From positions 1 to 64,000 of the forward strand of contig JABAQR010000047.1 of assembly GCA_019187485.1 (NCBI GenBank): a stretch of 64,000 nucleotides of DNA. Reading direction: 5' to 3'. Each line of letters starts with the position of its first letter. The stretch's first letter is position 1. The translations under genes and the position numbers were made by a program. This DNA is from Lysobacterales bacterium (GTDB lineage: Bacteria; Pseudomonadota; Gammaproteobacteria; Xanthomonadales; SZUA-5). Below are positions 27,039-30,792 of this stretch, piece by piece. The notes beneath the pieces are model-generated. The model made no database searches. It saw nothing but the letters and a program-made list of their open reading frames with translations, and was not told where the DNA came from.

Positions 27039-28250
27039 TCAATCGCAACGGCGCGCCAGCACCCGATGCATCGCCAGCAGCAAGGGCCACAGCAACAGCA
27101 GCCACTCGAGATTGCCTTGATCGAAGCCGCGGAAGGCCTTCAGGAAGGCGGCCAGGGCGACACCAGCCAGCGCCGACCAGCCCGCCAGCACAGCCAGCCG
27201 CGCGACCCGTCCGTTCACGCGCTCGTGCCTGGCCAGCAAGGCCCAGGCCGGCAGGCTGAGCCACCACAGCGGCAAAGCCAGCAACAAGTTCTGGTTGCGC
27301 CAGGCGGCGTAGTGATCCGTGCCGAACCAGAGCCCGATCAGCAGCAGGCCGGCCGCACCGAGCAGCAGCGCCGCAGCGCCACCGAACAGTGCCAACGGCC
27401 AGCGCCAGGCGCCACCGCGTTCGGCCAGGCGCGCCAGCAACAAGACGAATCCGGCGAGTGCGATGCCCGCCACCGCGAAGGCGGCGCGCCAGTCGGGCGG
27501 CTGCGGCGTGGTGTACTCGGGGTCTGCGCCGGCCGGCAGCACCGTGGTCGACACCACCAGCGGCTGGCCGTCGGCGAGCTTCAGCTCGGCCACCTGGCGC
27601 ATCAGTTCGGCCGGAATGAAAGCCTCCTCGCGGATTGTCAGCGGCTGGTCCACCGGCTGTCCGAGCGCGAAGTCGGTGCCGAGGTAGAGCCACCACTCGC
27701 CCTGCGCGTGCGCTCGTGTCATCCGCCGCCAGGTCTGGCCGTGTGAGCGGTGCTCGGTGGCCCGTTCGAGCGCGCCGCCGAGCGCGGCGTCGAGCGCATC
27801 GCGCACCTTGGTCGAGCAGTTGATCGTGTAGTAGTCGTAACGGTAATCGCGGTTCTCCGGCTGCACGTGCGCGTGCAAGGCCTGCGCGAGCGCGAGTGCG
27901 CTCGCGTCCGGCAGGCGCAGTTGCTGCACCCAGACGCGCCGGCCGGCGGCGACGTAGCCGGCGAGATCGTCATCGCCATCGAGCGCGACCGCCTGGTAGA
28001 GCATGTGCCCGGTCAGGAAACGCAGCAGGAAATCCTGCTGGGCGAAGTCGAAATAGCCGAAGTTGTAGCTGAGCGCGCGCCCGGTCGCGCGATCACGCAG
28101 CAGGATCGCGTTGTGACCGAAGCGCTGCCAGTAGACCTGGCCGGGCTCGACCGTGACCAGGCTGACGTCGAAGGGCACTTCGGCGCGCAGCGGTGCGGCC
28201 CACGCGGCCAGCAGCAGGGCCAGCCAGAGCGCCGCGCTGCGCAGGCTCAT
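27039..28250 (-). CDS. Lnb-like (DUF4105) protein with C-terminal membrane domain
   Basis: A 403-residue protein. A signal peptide (ALWLALLLAAWAAPLRA) precedes a periplasmic DUF4105/Lnb N-terminal domain: YWQRFGHNAILLRD with H46, SYNFGYFDFAQQDFLLRFL, and YTINCSTKVRDAL with C145, the likely Cys-His pair of this NlpC-like fold. Five predicted membrane segments follow from about residue 262. DUF4105 proteins include the Bacteroides lipoprotein N-acyltransferase Lnb. The start overlaps the corC stop (ATGA), so it occupies the place where lnt usually follows corC. A role in lipoprotein N-acylation is therefore possible but unproven. Confidence 0.85.
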   Translation of the reverse strand: MSLRSAALWLALLLAAWAAPLRAEVPFDVSLVTVEPGQVYWQRFGHNAILLRDRATGRALSYNFGYFDFAQQDFLLRFLTGHMLYQAVALDGDDDLAGYVAAGRRVWVQQLRLPDASALALAQALHAHVQPENRDYRYDYYTINCSTKVRDALDAALGGALERATEHRSHGQTWRRMTRAHAQGEWWLYLGTDFALGQPVDQPLTIREEAFIPAELMRQVAELKLADGQPLVVSTTVLPAGADPEYTTPQPPDWRAAFAVAGIALAGFVLLLARLAERGGAWRWPLALFGGAAALLLGAAGLLLIGLWFGTDHYAAWRNQNLLLALPLWWLSLPAWALLARHERVNGRVARLAVLAGWSALAGVALAAFLKAFRGFDQGNLEWLLLLWPLLLAMHRVLARRCD

Positions 28251-29101
28251 GCGCCGCCCGGCGGGCGCACGCGCAGCAGGTGCACGCGACGGGCGTCCGC
28301 CTTGGCCACCTCGAACAGGAAACCACCGAGTTCGATCGATTCGCCGCGCTCGGGCAGGTGCCCGAAAGCCTGGGTCACGAGGCCGCCGACGGTATCCGCC
28401 GCGTCGATGTCGAGTCCGACGTGGAAATGCGCATTGAAATCTTCCACCGGGGTCAGCGCCTGCACCGTCCAGGCGCCGTCCGGCTGCGCGGTGATGTGCA
28501 CCTCCGGCTTGTCCTCGGCGTCGTGTTCGTCGTCGATCTCGCCGACGATCTCCTCGAGCACGTCCTCGATGGTGATCAGGCCGGCGACGCCGCCGTACTC
28601 GTCCACCACCACCGCCATGTGCGTGCGGTTGAGACGAAAATCCTTGAGCAGCACATTGAGCTTCTTCGACTCCGGGATCAGCGTCATCGGCCGCAGGATC
28701 CGGCGCAGCTCGAACTCGCTCTCGCCGCTCGCGAAATGGCGCAGCAGATCCTTGGCGAGCAGCAGACCGAGCACCTCGTCCTTGTCCTCGCCGTGGACCG
28801 GGTAACGCGAATGCCCGGATTCGGTGACGATCCGCAGGATGTCCTTGAGTGAGGCGTCGATCGGCACCCACACCATCTGCGCGCGCGGCACCATGACATC
28901 GACGACCTGCTCGTCGGACACGCCCATGGCGCCTTCCAGCATCGCCAAGGTATCGCCATCGAGGAGCCCGTTCTGGCGCGCGTGGCGCAATTCCTCGATC
29001 AGTTCCTCGCGGTTCCGCGGCTCTCCGGAGAAGGCCTGGCCCAGTCGCTCCAGCCAGGATCGCGGCGCGGAACCGCTGCTACTCGGTGAATCTTCGTTCA
29101 T
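28247..29101 (-). CDS. corC: CorC/YbeX-type CBS-domain protein
   Basis: A 284-residue cytoplasmic protein with two CBS domains (about 70-195; QVVDVMVPRAQMVWV opens the first, THMAVVVDEYGGVAGLITIE closes the second) and a C-terminal CorC_HlyC transporter-associated domain (ALTPVEDFNAHFHVGL, ADTVGGLVTQAFGHLPERGE). It lacks the DUF21 membrane domain, so it is of the CorC/YbeX kind, linked to magnesium or cobalt efflux and to ribosome biology. The usual upstream ybeZ-ybeY genes are absent; the next gene upstream is unrelated. Confidence 0.95.
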   Translation of the reverse strand: MNEDSPSSSGSAPRSWLERLGQAFSGEPRNREELIEELRHARQNGLLDGDTLAMLEGAMGVSDEQVVDVMVPRAQMVWVPIDASLKDILRIVTESGHSRYPVHGEDKDEVLGLLLAKDLLRHFASGESEFELRRILRPMTLIPESKKLNVLLKDFRLNRTHMAVVVDEYGGVAGLITIEDVLEEIVGEIDDEHDAEDKPEVHITAQPDGAWTVQALTPVEDFNAHFHVGLDIDAADTVGGLVTQAFGHLPERGESIELGGFLFEVAKADARRVHLLRVRPPGGA

Positions 29102-29264: not shown

Positions 29265-30758
29265 TCACTGCCCGTAATCCACCCCGTTCACCCGCGCCCG
29301 CAGCAAGTCGATGCGGGTCTCGCCGCTGCTGGCCGAGGTGCGCGAACGCGAGCGGATGGTGCCCACCTGCGGAGCGGTCCACAGGTCCATCGAAACCGAG
29401 GCGCTGACGCCGAAGGTGGTGGTTTGGATGTCGCGTTTGAACTTGCAGGCATTGAAGCTGCCGGCCGGAACGTCTTCCGGATCGTCGGCCTCGCGACGGA
29501 TGGTCTCGCTGTACTGGGTGGTGTAGCTCAACTGGCCGGTGGTGTTGCCGACGTAGCTGTGGGTGTAACTCTCACCGACCGCCGGTGCGCGGATGAACTT
29601 CGCCGGCGGGTTGTACACGGTGGTCAGTGCGAGCACGCCGTTCTGGTAACCCTCGGTGCCGAGGGTGCGGATCTCGGTCGGCGTCACCTGCATGTAGCTC
29701 TTGCCGGTCAGCACGTTCTGCGCGTCGAACTGTTCCAGTACCAGCACGCTCTGGCCCTGGAAGGTGGCAGGCCCGGTGACGCGTTCGGTGACATCGCCAC
29801 CGCCGTTGTCCGGGCGGTTGACGCGAAAATCGCCGACGTTGAGCCCGGGGTCGCAGGCACTCAGCGCGCCACTGCCACCGCCGCCACCGGCGGCGTGACT
29901 GCACAGGGTCTTCGGCACGTCCGGGCCGGTGTAGACCAGGCGGGTGATGTCCTTGCTCTGGGCGACACCGTCCAGCGTGTACGCAAACGTTCCGGTCTCA
30001 CCGTCGGCGAAAGTCAGCGAGAAGCTCCCGACCACCGGCACCGGGAAAGTGGTGGCATTGCCATCGATCAGGTTGAATGGGATGCCGCTCACCGGGCGGT
30101 TGAGCTCGCCGCTGTAGCTGCCGTTGGCCTGCCGCGTGGCGAGGCCGGTGACCCACATCGGCTTGCCGTCGCCGGCGTAGGTGTACCAGGCGACGAAGAT
30201 CAGGTCGCCCTGGTGGACGATGGAAATACCCCAGCCGGATTCGCTCGGACGCCACCAGACGTCGGTGTAGTTGCTGGCTCCGGCGCGCGATGCCGTGGTG
30301 AAGGTGCAGGTCGGCGGATTGGCGATGAACGCCGCCTTCTCGAGTCGGCGCGTCTGCGCGATCCCGTCCACGGTGTAACCGAAGTCGAGCTTGCCATCGG
30401 CGGTGAGCGTCAGGCGAGCCTCGCCGCGCGGATTGGTCTGGAGGTTCGACTGAGCATTGTTGATCTGGTGGAAGGGTACGCCGGTGAAGCTGTTCAGCGG
30501 ACCGACGTAGCGACCGTCCGCCTGGCGCGTCGCGGCGGCAACCAGCCACAGAACCTTGCCGTCGCTGCCGTAGACGTACCACGCGATGAACACGATGCTG
30601 CCCTGGTGCACCACATTGACGCCGTGACCCGCCTGGGACTGGTCGTACCAGAGCGCGGTCAGGTTGACCGGGTCCGGGGTCACCTGCGCCTGCGTCGCAC
30701 CCGCCCACCACAGCATCGCGCCCGCCAGCACCGCCCGCACCGCTGCCCGCATCGCCAT
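29265..30758 (-). CDS. Exported protein with two WW-x(n)-SESGWG-type modules
   Basis: A 497-residue exported protein (signal peptide RAAVRAVLAGAMLWWAGATQA). Two tandem modules of about 110 residues share the pattern L/V-W-[YW]-x-x-x-x-[AS]-G-[HW]-G-[VI]-x-[IV]-V-H-Q-G-x-[IL]-[VI]-F-[IV]-A-W-Y (ALWYDQSQAGHGVNVVHQGS; DVWWRPSESGWGISIVHQGD), each with G-x-LNxx-(T/S)G-(V/I)-P-F and a final (V/L)DG-[IV]-A-Q. A Gly-rich linker ([10 protein letters not shown]) leads to a third, unrelated beta-rich domain of about 180 residues. The modules are known in exported proteins of Xanthomonadales and Burkholderiales without assigned function. The ATG at 30758 gives the best signal peptide. It is divergent from the crotonase gene. 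Confidence 0.85.
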   Translation of the reverse strand: MAMRAAVRAVLAGAMLWWAGATQAQVTPDPVNLTALWYDQSQAGHGVNVVHQGSIVFIAWYVYGSDGKVLWLVAAATRQADGRYVGPLNSFTGVPFHQINNAQSNLQTNPRGEARLTLTADGKLDFGYTVDGIAQTRRLEKAAFIANPPTCTFTTASRAGASNYTDVWWRPSESGWGISIVHQGDLIFVAWYTYAGDGKPMWVTGLATRQANGSYSGELNRPVSGIPFNLIDGNATTFPVPVVGSFSLTFADGETGTFAYTLDGVAQSKDITRLVYTGPDVPKTLCSHAAGGGGGSGALSACDPGLNVGDFRVNRPDNGGGDVTERVTGPATFQGQSVLVLEQFDAQNVLTGKSYMQVTPTEIRTLGTEGYQNGVLALTTVYNPPAKFIRAPAVGESYTHSYVGNTTGQLSYTTQYSETIRREADDPEDVPAGSFNACKFKRDIQTTTFGVSASVSMDLWTAPQVGTIRSRSRTSASSGETRIDLLRARVNGVDYGQ

Positions 30759-30792
30759 CCCCCATTCGCCCGAGTATGACCCGACCATACCG

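Follow-up and report, generated by a model that had tools for sequence, protein, structure and literature searches.

In E. coli, corC (ybeX) lies in an operon with the order miaB-phoH-ybeY-corC-lnt, the last gene of which encodes Lnt, the N-acylation enzyme known in Proteobacteria, by which lipoproteins would receive their third fatty acid. N-acylation of lipoproteins influences immune recognition and is also a target for drugs. The window analysed here, a stretch of 64,000 nucleotides from a Lysobacterales bacterium, carries after corC a gene for a DUF4105 protein of 403 aa, which a sequence-only reading had proposed either as a non-orthologous substitute for Lnt or as an additional enzyme. 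We asked which of these it is, for the host genome and for the order, meaning here the one that holds Xanthomonas, Stenotrophomonas and Lysobacter. The features of the locus are as follows.

27039..28250, minus strand: Lnb-type (DUF4105) gene in the lnt slot, encoding a putative lipoprotein N-acyltransferase (403 aa plus stop)
28247..29101, minus strand: corC (ybeX), upstream partner of the Lnb-type gene, with CBS and CorC_HlyC domains
28182..28250, minus strand: hydrophobic segment at the N terminus, either a signal or an anchor (about residues 1-23), from hydropathy; helix 3-17 in the model
27525..28172, minus strand: periplasmic catalytic domain, residues 27-242, predicted permuted NlpC/P60 fold (YiiX/TseH/LRAT-like), from VIA-align
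28113..28115, minus strand: codon of the proposed catalytic His46 (RFGH), invariant in 46 homologues and aligned with Bacteroides FGH
27816..27818, minus strand: codon of the proposed catalytic Cys145 (NC[ST]), invariant in 46 homologues and aligned with Bacteroides NCAT
27045..27488, minus strand: five-helix membrane domain, residues 255-402, from hydropathy, conservation and AlphaFold2

The start of the Lnb-type gene shared 4 bases (ATGA) with the corC stop, in agreement with the overlap described earlier from the sequence. The best NCBIfam match of the corC product was NF011675 (CorC), at 298 bits and below that model's cutoff of 379. In Pfam, the 403-aa protein passed the cutoff for Lnb_N (PF13387, formerly DUF4105; 63.9 bits, E = 1.7e-17, cutoff 22.2) and gave a partial match to 5TMH_Lnb slightly under the cutoff (PF25221; 21.8 bits, E = 2e-4, cutoff 25.2), which was passed by the Xanthomonas orthologue (30.8 bits). 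It was the only PF13387 protein in the host genome. The NCBIfam Lnb model, NF051878, matched residues 21-343 (E = 5.6e-46), but the score of 157 bits lay far below the equivalog cutoff of 550 bits, and the protein was therefore classed as a member of the Lnb family and not as an Lnb equivalog; Bacteroides finegoldii Lnb passed that cutoff with 667 bits. Alignment with B. finegoldii Lnb gave 29% identity across 313 aa; it paired the catalytic-type His and Cys of the two proteins and reached through the membrane domain to H313. These matches indicate that the 403-aa protein belongs to the Lnb/DUF4105 family, which is already known and of which it is a newly recognised member.

The residues put forward as a catalytic pair, H46 in RFGH and C145 in NC, were found at those positions and were invariant in both homologue sets (n = 30 and n = 46). 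Among the 46 homologues, H313, N319, N321 and Q378 of the membrane part were also invariant, and H313 aligned with the membrane-domain His of Bacteroides. Five hydrophobic spans followed the catalytic domain, as had been predicted (residues 253-278, 284-312, 321-340, 349-373 and 381-399), and the AlphaFold2 model (pLDDT 93.8, pTM 0.88) agreed, showing a helix at the N terminus followed by a mixed domain (27-242) and then by five membrane helices. The protein thus resembles Bacteroides Lnb (NF051878, PF13387 plus PF25221) in its size of about 400 aa, in the order of an NlpC/P60-like periplasmic domain and five helices, in the catalytic-type His and Cys, and in the conserved His of the membrane domain. 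It differs in genomic context: lnb of Bacteroides and Parabacteroides precedes an alkaline-phosphatase family gene and secA, whereas the window gene follows corC.

A profile of the family, run against PDB sequences, returned no relative, and folds were therefore compared. Foldseek alone recovered only TseH, weakly (E = 7.6e-3), and the fold was settled by VIA-align, for which the best matches of the catalytic domain were YiiX (2if6, Z 11.4) and TseH (6v98, Z 11.1), with a B. cereus cysteine peptidase at Z 9.3 (3kw0). These matches to the model suggest that the catalytic domain adopts the permuted NlpC/P60 superfamily fold. TseH and YiiX would share this fold, but to our knowledge neither they nor Tox-Act1 has a five-helix membrane domain; the genomic contexts of all three differ from that of the Lnb-type gene, and Tox-Act1 and TseH are antibacterial effectors. 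DUF4105 is placed in the permuted NlpC/P60 superfamily by PMC12994826, which reports Tox-Act1 as its sister clade.

Comparison of corC neighbourhoods across the order supported the view that the DUF4105 gene occupies the lnt slot. In a second set of loci, corC was directly upstream of lnb on the same strand at all 102 that held both genes, with gaps of less than 450 bases in 97, gaps of 500-945 bases in four and an overlap of a few bases in one. The two genes likewise adjoined each other in the relatives of the first locus set, so that the pairing is not due to chance. Loci at which lnb had no corC nearby were a contig beginning at lnb, a Gemmatimonadetes record, and a second, diverged Lnb-type copy in genome G003 (L205), which is 30-36% identical to the 403-aa protein. 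The Xanthomonas run, miaB-phoH-(orf)-ybeY-(orf)-corC-lnb-corA, follows the gene order of the E. coli operon, with lnb in place of lnt. In both genomes of family f7, lnt stood directly after a corC whose product is 59% identical to that of the window. Upstream of corC in the window lies a reading frame at 29265-30788 (minus strand) for a protein of 507 aa, which has a weak DUF3108-like match and is not ybeY; as this protein stands there instead, corC-lnb is uncoupled from ybeY in the host genome.

To establish how widely the two genes occur, genomes of the order were surveyed. In a first survey of 101 genomes, including the host, 97 had a DUF4105 protein and 18 had lnt above the cutoff. In the larger survey, 288 of 299 genomes had the DUF4105 protein, and lnt exceeded the cutoff in 34, in 31 of them alongside Lnb. 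Among the 244 well-assembled genomes (completeness of 90% or more, contamination of 5% or less), the protein was present in 241. The three without it (G014, G024 and G026) were the only ones with lnt of canonical strength (about 300 bits), and the remaining eight Lnb-less genomes were 65-88% complete. Canonical lnt was not found in the complete chromosomes of Xanthomonas hortorum, Xanthomonas sp. LMG 31884 and Stenotrophomonas maltophilia SJTL3, which gave fragmentary matches of 23-37 bits, the level of other carbon-nitrogen hydrolases. In a class-wide sample of 369 genomes, 364 lay outside the order, and 332 of these had lnt over the cutoff; full-length Lnb matches occurred only in the 5 order members. 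Across genomes, the Lnb-type gene and canonical lnt exclude one another, as would be expected of non-orthologous displacement.

Two sets of candidates were set aside. G026, filed in the order, might have been counted as a third genome with corC followed by lnt. Its run (L204) is miaB-phoH-ybeY-corC-lnt-metK-trmB, an arrangement typical of Alphaproteobacteria, and its CorC is only 26-39% identical; its place in the order is therefore doubtful, and the record looks misplaced or chimeric. The longer DUF4105 proteins of other Gammaproteobacteria (L151-L175, open frames of more than 600 aa) were rejected as parallel cases, as they matched only weakly, formed a separate branch (100/100) and coexisted with lnt.

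One relative belonged to a record labelled Gemmatimonadetes (L107). Of 200 Gemmatimonadota genomes, 132 had Lnb (E < 1e-35) and 68 did not; lnt was above the cutoff in 63 of these 68, five had neither gene, and 36 of the 200 had both. The exclusion was pronounced (Fisher p = 4e-20, shared ancestry ignored) and is an independent replicate of the pattern in the order. In nine of the 36 genomes with both genes, lnb stood ahead of lnt in a same-strand tandem (L297-L305), so the two share a context in this phylum too; the Lnt of these nine keeps Glu389. In a tree of 49 proteins, those of the order formed one group (99/99), the second copy of G003 included, nested in a wider group that also held Gemmatimonadota (100/99), and the Bacteroidota and longer gammaproteobacterial DUF4105 proteins lay apart. 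The tree covers few phyla and does not fix the donor or the direction of transfer; its topology would fit one lateral gain by the order, and the position of the order's proteins, as a single clade among the Lnb proteins of Gemmatimonadota, points to one transfer.

Of the two roles first proposed, replacement is favoured by the presence of the gene across the order, by its place in the lnt slot and by the way it and canonical lnt exclude each other both in the order and in Gemmatimonadota. We consider it highly probable that the 403-aa protein is a gammaproteobacterial Lnb-family lipoprotein N-acyltransferase that replaces canonical Lnt after corC, and that the replacement probably took place once, early in the order. 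The operon slot is that of Lnt (TIGR00546), and so is the predicted reaction, but the fold is unrelated, that of Lnt being nitrilase-like with an E-K-C triad.

A search of the host genome for lnt gave a divided result, in that a TIGR00546 match above the cutoff exists but belongs to a separate lineage with an altered active site. This one Lnt homologue is on contig C8 (L001) and has 863 aa, scoring 191 bits against a cutoff of 132.9. In alignment it keeps the E267-K335-C387 triad and has Leu-Asp where E. coli Lnt has Tyr388-Glu389. All 20 of the long Lnt-like proteins had Cys-Leu/Arg-Asp at 387-389, compared with Cys-Tyr/Phe-Glu in canonical Lnt of the class and in the f7 Lnt. Both Tyr388 and Glu389 of E. 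coli Lnt have been reported as essential (PMC5500888). In a maximum-likelihood tree, the long proteins formed one branch (100/99) apart from canonical Lnt, with which the f7 proteins grouped. Most relatives were without even a homologue of the C8 type.

A three-gene cassette was conserved at the C8 locus (L186, 5618-10280), at L213 and L214, and elsewhere. It consists of an exported GDSL-like protein, a small protein with one hydrophobic segment, and the Lnt-like protein of about 800-860 aa with a C-terminal extension, in which the active site reads Cys-Leu-Asp and not Cys-Tyr-Glu. As the other long-Lnt loci examined (L213, L214 and others) hold the same GDSL-like and small neighbours, the cassette is possibly a dedicated acylation system, comparable in its logic to that of AatD (PMC7478709). 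A second diverged Lnt-like lineage, of about 470-480 aa and with Cys-Lys-Asp at the active site, was seen in family f12 and in Luteibacter genomes (L054-L057, L183, L184), where it coexists with Lnb.

The two enzymes may both act, with Lnb as the housekeeping enzyme and the Lnt-like protein acylating a dedicated exported partner. Such a division of labour would complement replacement and not compete with it. It would suit the near-universal occurrence of Lnb beside a patchy cassette with fixed neighbours, and the Gemmatimonadota genomes that hold both genes (36 of 200, nine in tandem), but the choice of the GDSL-like protein as the acylated partner is a guess, and we regard this arrangement as a real, if tentative, possibility.

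The 403-aa protein could instead be a lipid hydrolase or an acyltransferase for another substrate, with the lipoproteins of the order remaining diacylated. The YiiX/TseH/LRAT fold family does include hydrolases and other transferases, and for X. campestris B100, in which no Lnt was recognised, diacyl anchors were assumed and modelled (PMC10368991, 2023). Lipoprotein transport is also relevant here: proteins of the LolC/E family above the cutoff numbered one per genome in the host (L250, contig C18), Xanthomonas, Stenotrophomonas and f7, which points to transport of the LolF type. Tolerance of lnt loss has been linked to this type (PMC11784454). An N-acylating enzyme may therefore be non-essential in these bacteria, and presence of the gene is thus no proof that it has the same role. 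A different substrate would, however, leave unexplained the lnt slot, the near-universality of the gene and its absence from genomes with canonical lnt in two phyla, and the closest characterised family is Lnb itself. We judge this alternative unlikely.

That the C8 protein is the working Lnt of the host and the DUF4105 protein a second, specialised enzyme is very improbable: although the former scores above the TIGR00546 cutoff (191 bits, cutoff 132.9) and retains its E-K-C triad, lnt over the cutoff is patchy (34 of 299 genomes, 31 alongside Lnb), the long proteins form a separate, well-supported clade (100/99) with Tyr388-Glu389 replaced by Leu/Arg-Asp in all 20, and the shared GDSL-like and small neighbours suggest a dedicated system, as for AatD. 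On the tree, the active site and the neighbourhood, the C8 protein was accordingly rejected as a refutation of replacement.

Under replacement of Lnt by the Lnb-type protein, Lgt and LspA would act first on the lipoprotein. The periplasmic permuted-NlpC/P60 domain would be held on the membrane by the five helices, and Cys145, activated by His46, would accept an acyl chain, donated by a phospholipid, in thioester linkage. The chain would then be passed to the alpha-amine of the N-terminal diacylglyceryl cysteine, giving a triacylated lipoprotein. For the 403-aa protein, catalysis, acyl donor, substrate and thioester step are inferred by homology to Bacteroides Lnb, which was identified by experiment, and to NlpC/P60 acyltransferases.

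In Bacteroides, Lnb was recognised in 2024 as the enzyme of lipoprotein N-acylation (Armbruster et al. 2024, as cited in PMC12994826). The citing paper, of 2026, describes DUF4105 and Lnt as displacing each other, with Lnt having repeatedly taken over from DUF4105 proteins in three genomic contexts. Our literature search found no paper connecting Lnb to Xanthomonas or its order. Another non-Lnt route to N-acylated lipoproteins is LnsA/LnsB of Staphylococcus (PMC13251419, PMC12345273), which differs in using two proteins and not one.

For the order, the N-acylation step that was thought to be absent is probably present by a different route. It is likely that the whole order lost Lnt and makes triacylated lipoproteins by means of a laterally acquired Lnb in the operon place of lnt. 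The interest of the locus lies in this order-wide swap and in its bearing on X. campestris, for which the gene predicts triacyl lipoproteins, against the diacyl assumption (PMC10368991). Inhibitors targeted at Lnt would be expected to miss the order. A specific gene can now be named as the candidate for this step in major genera of plant associates and opportunists, and the matter is open to direct experiment.
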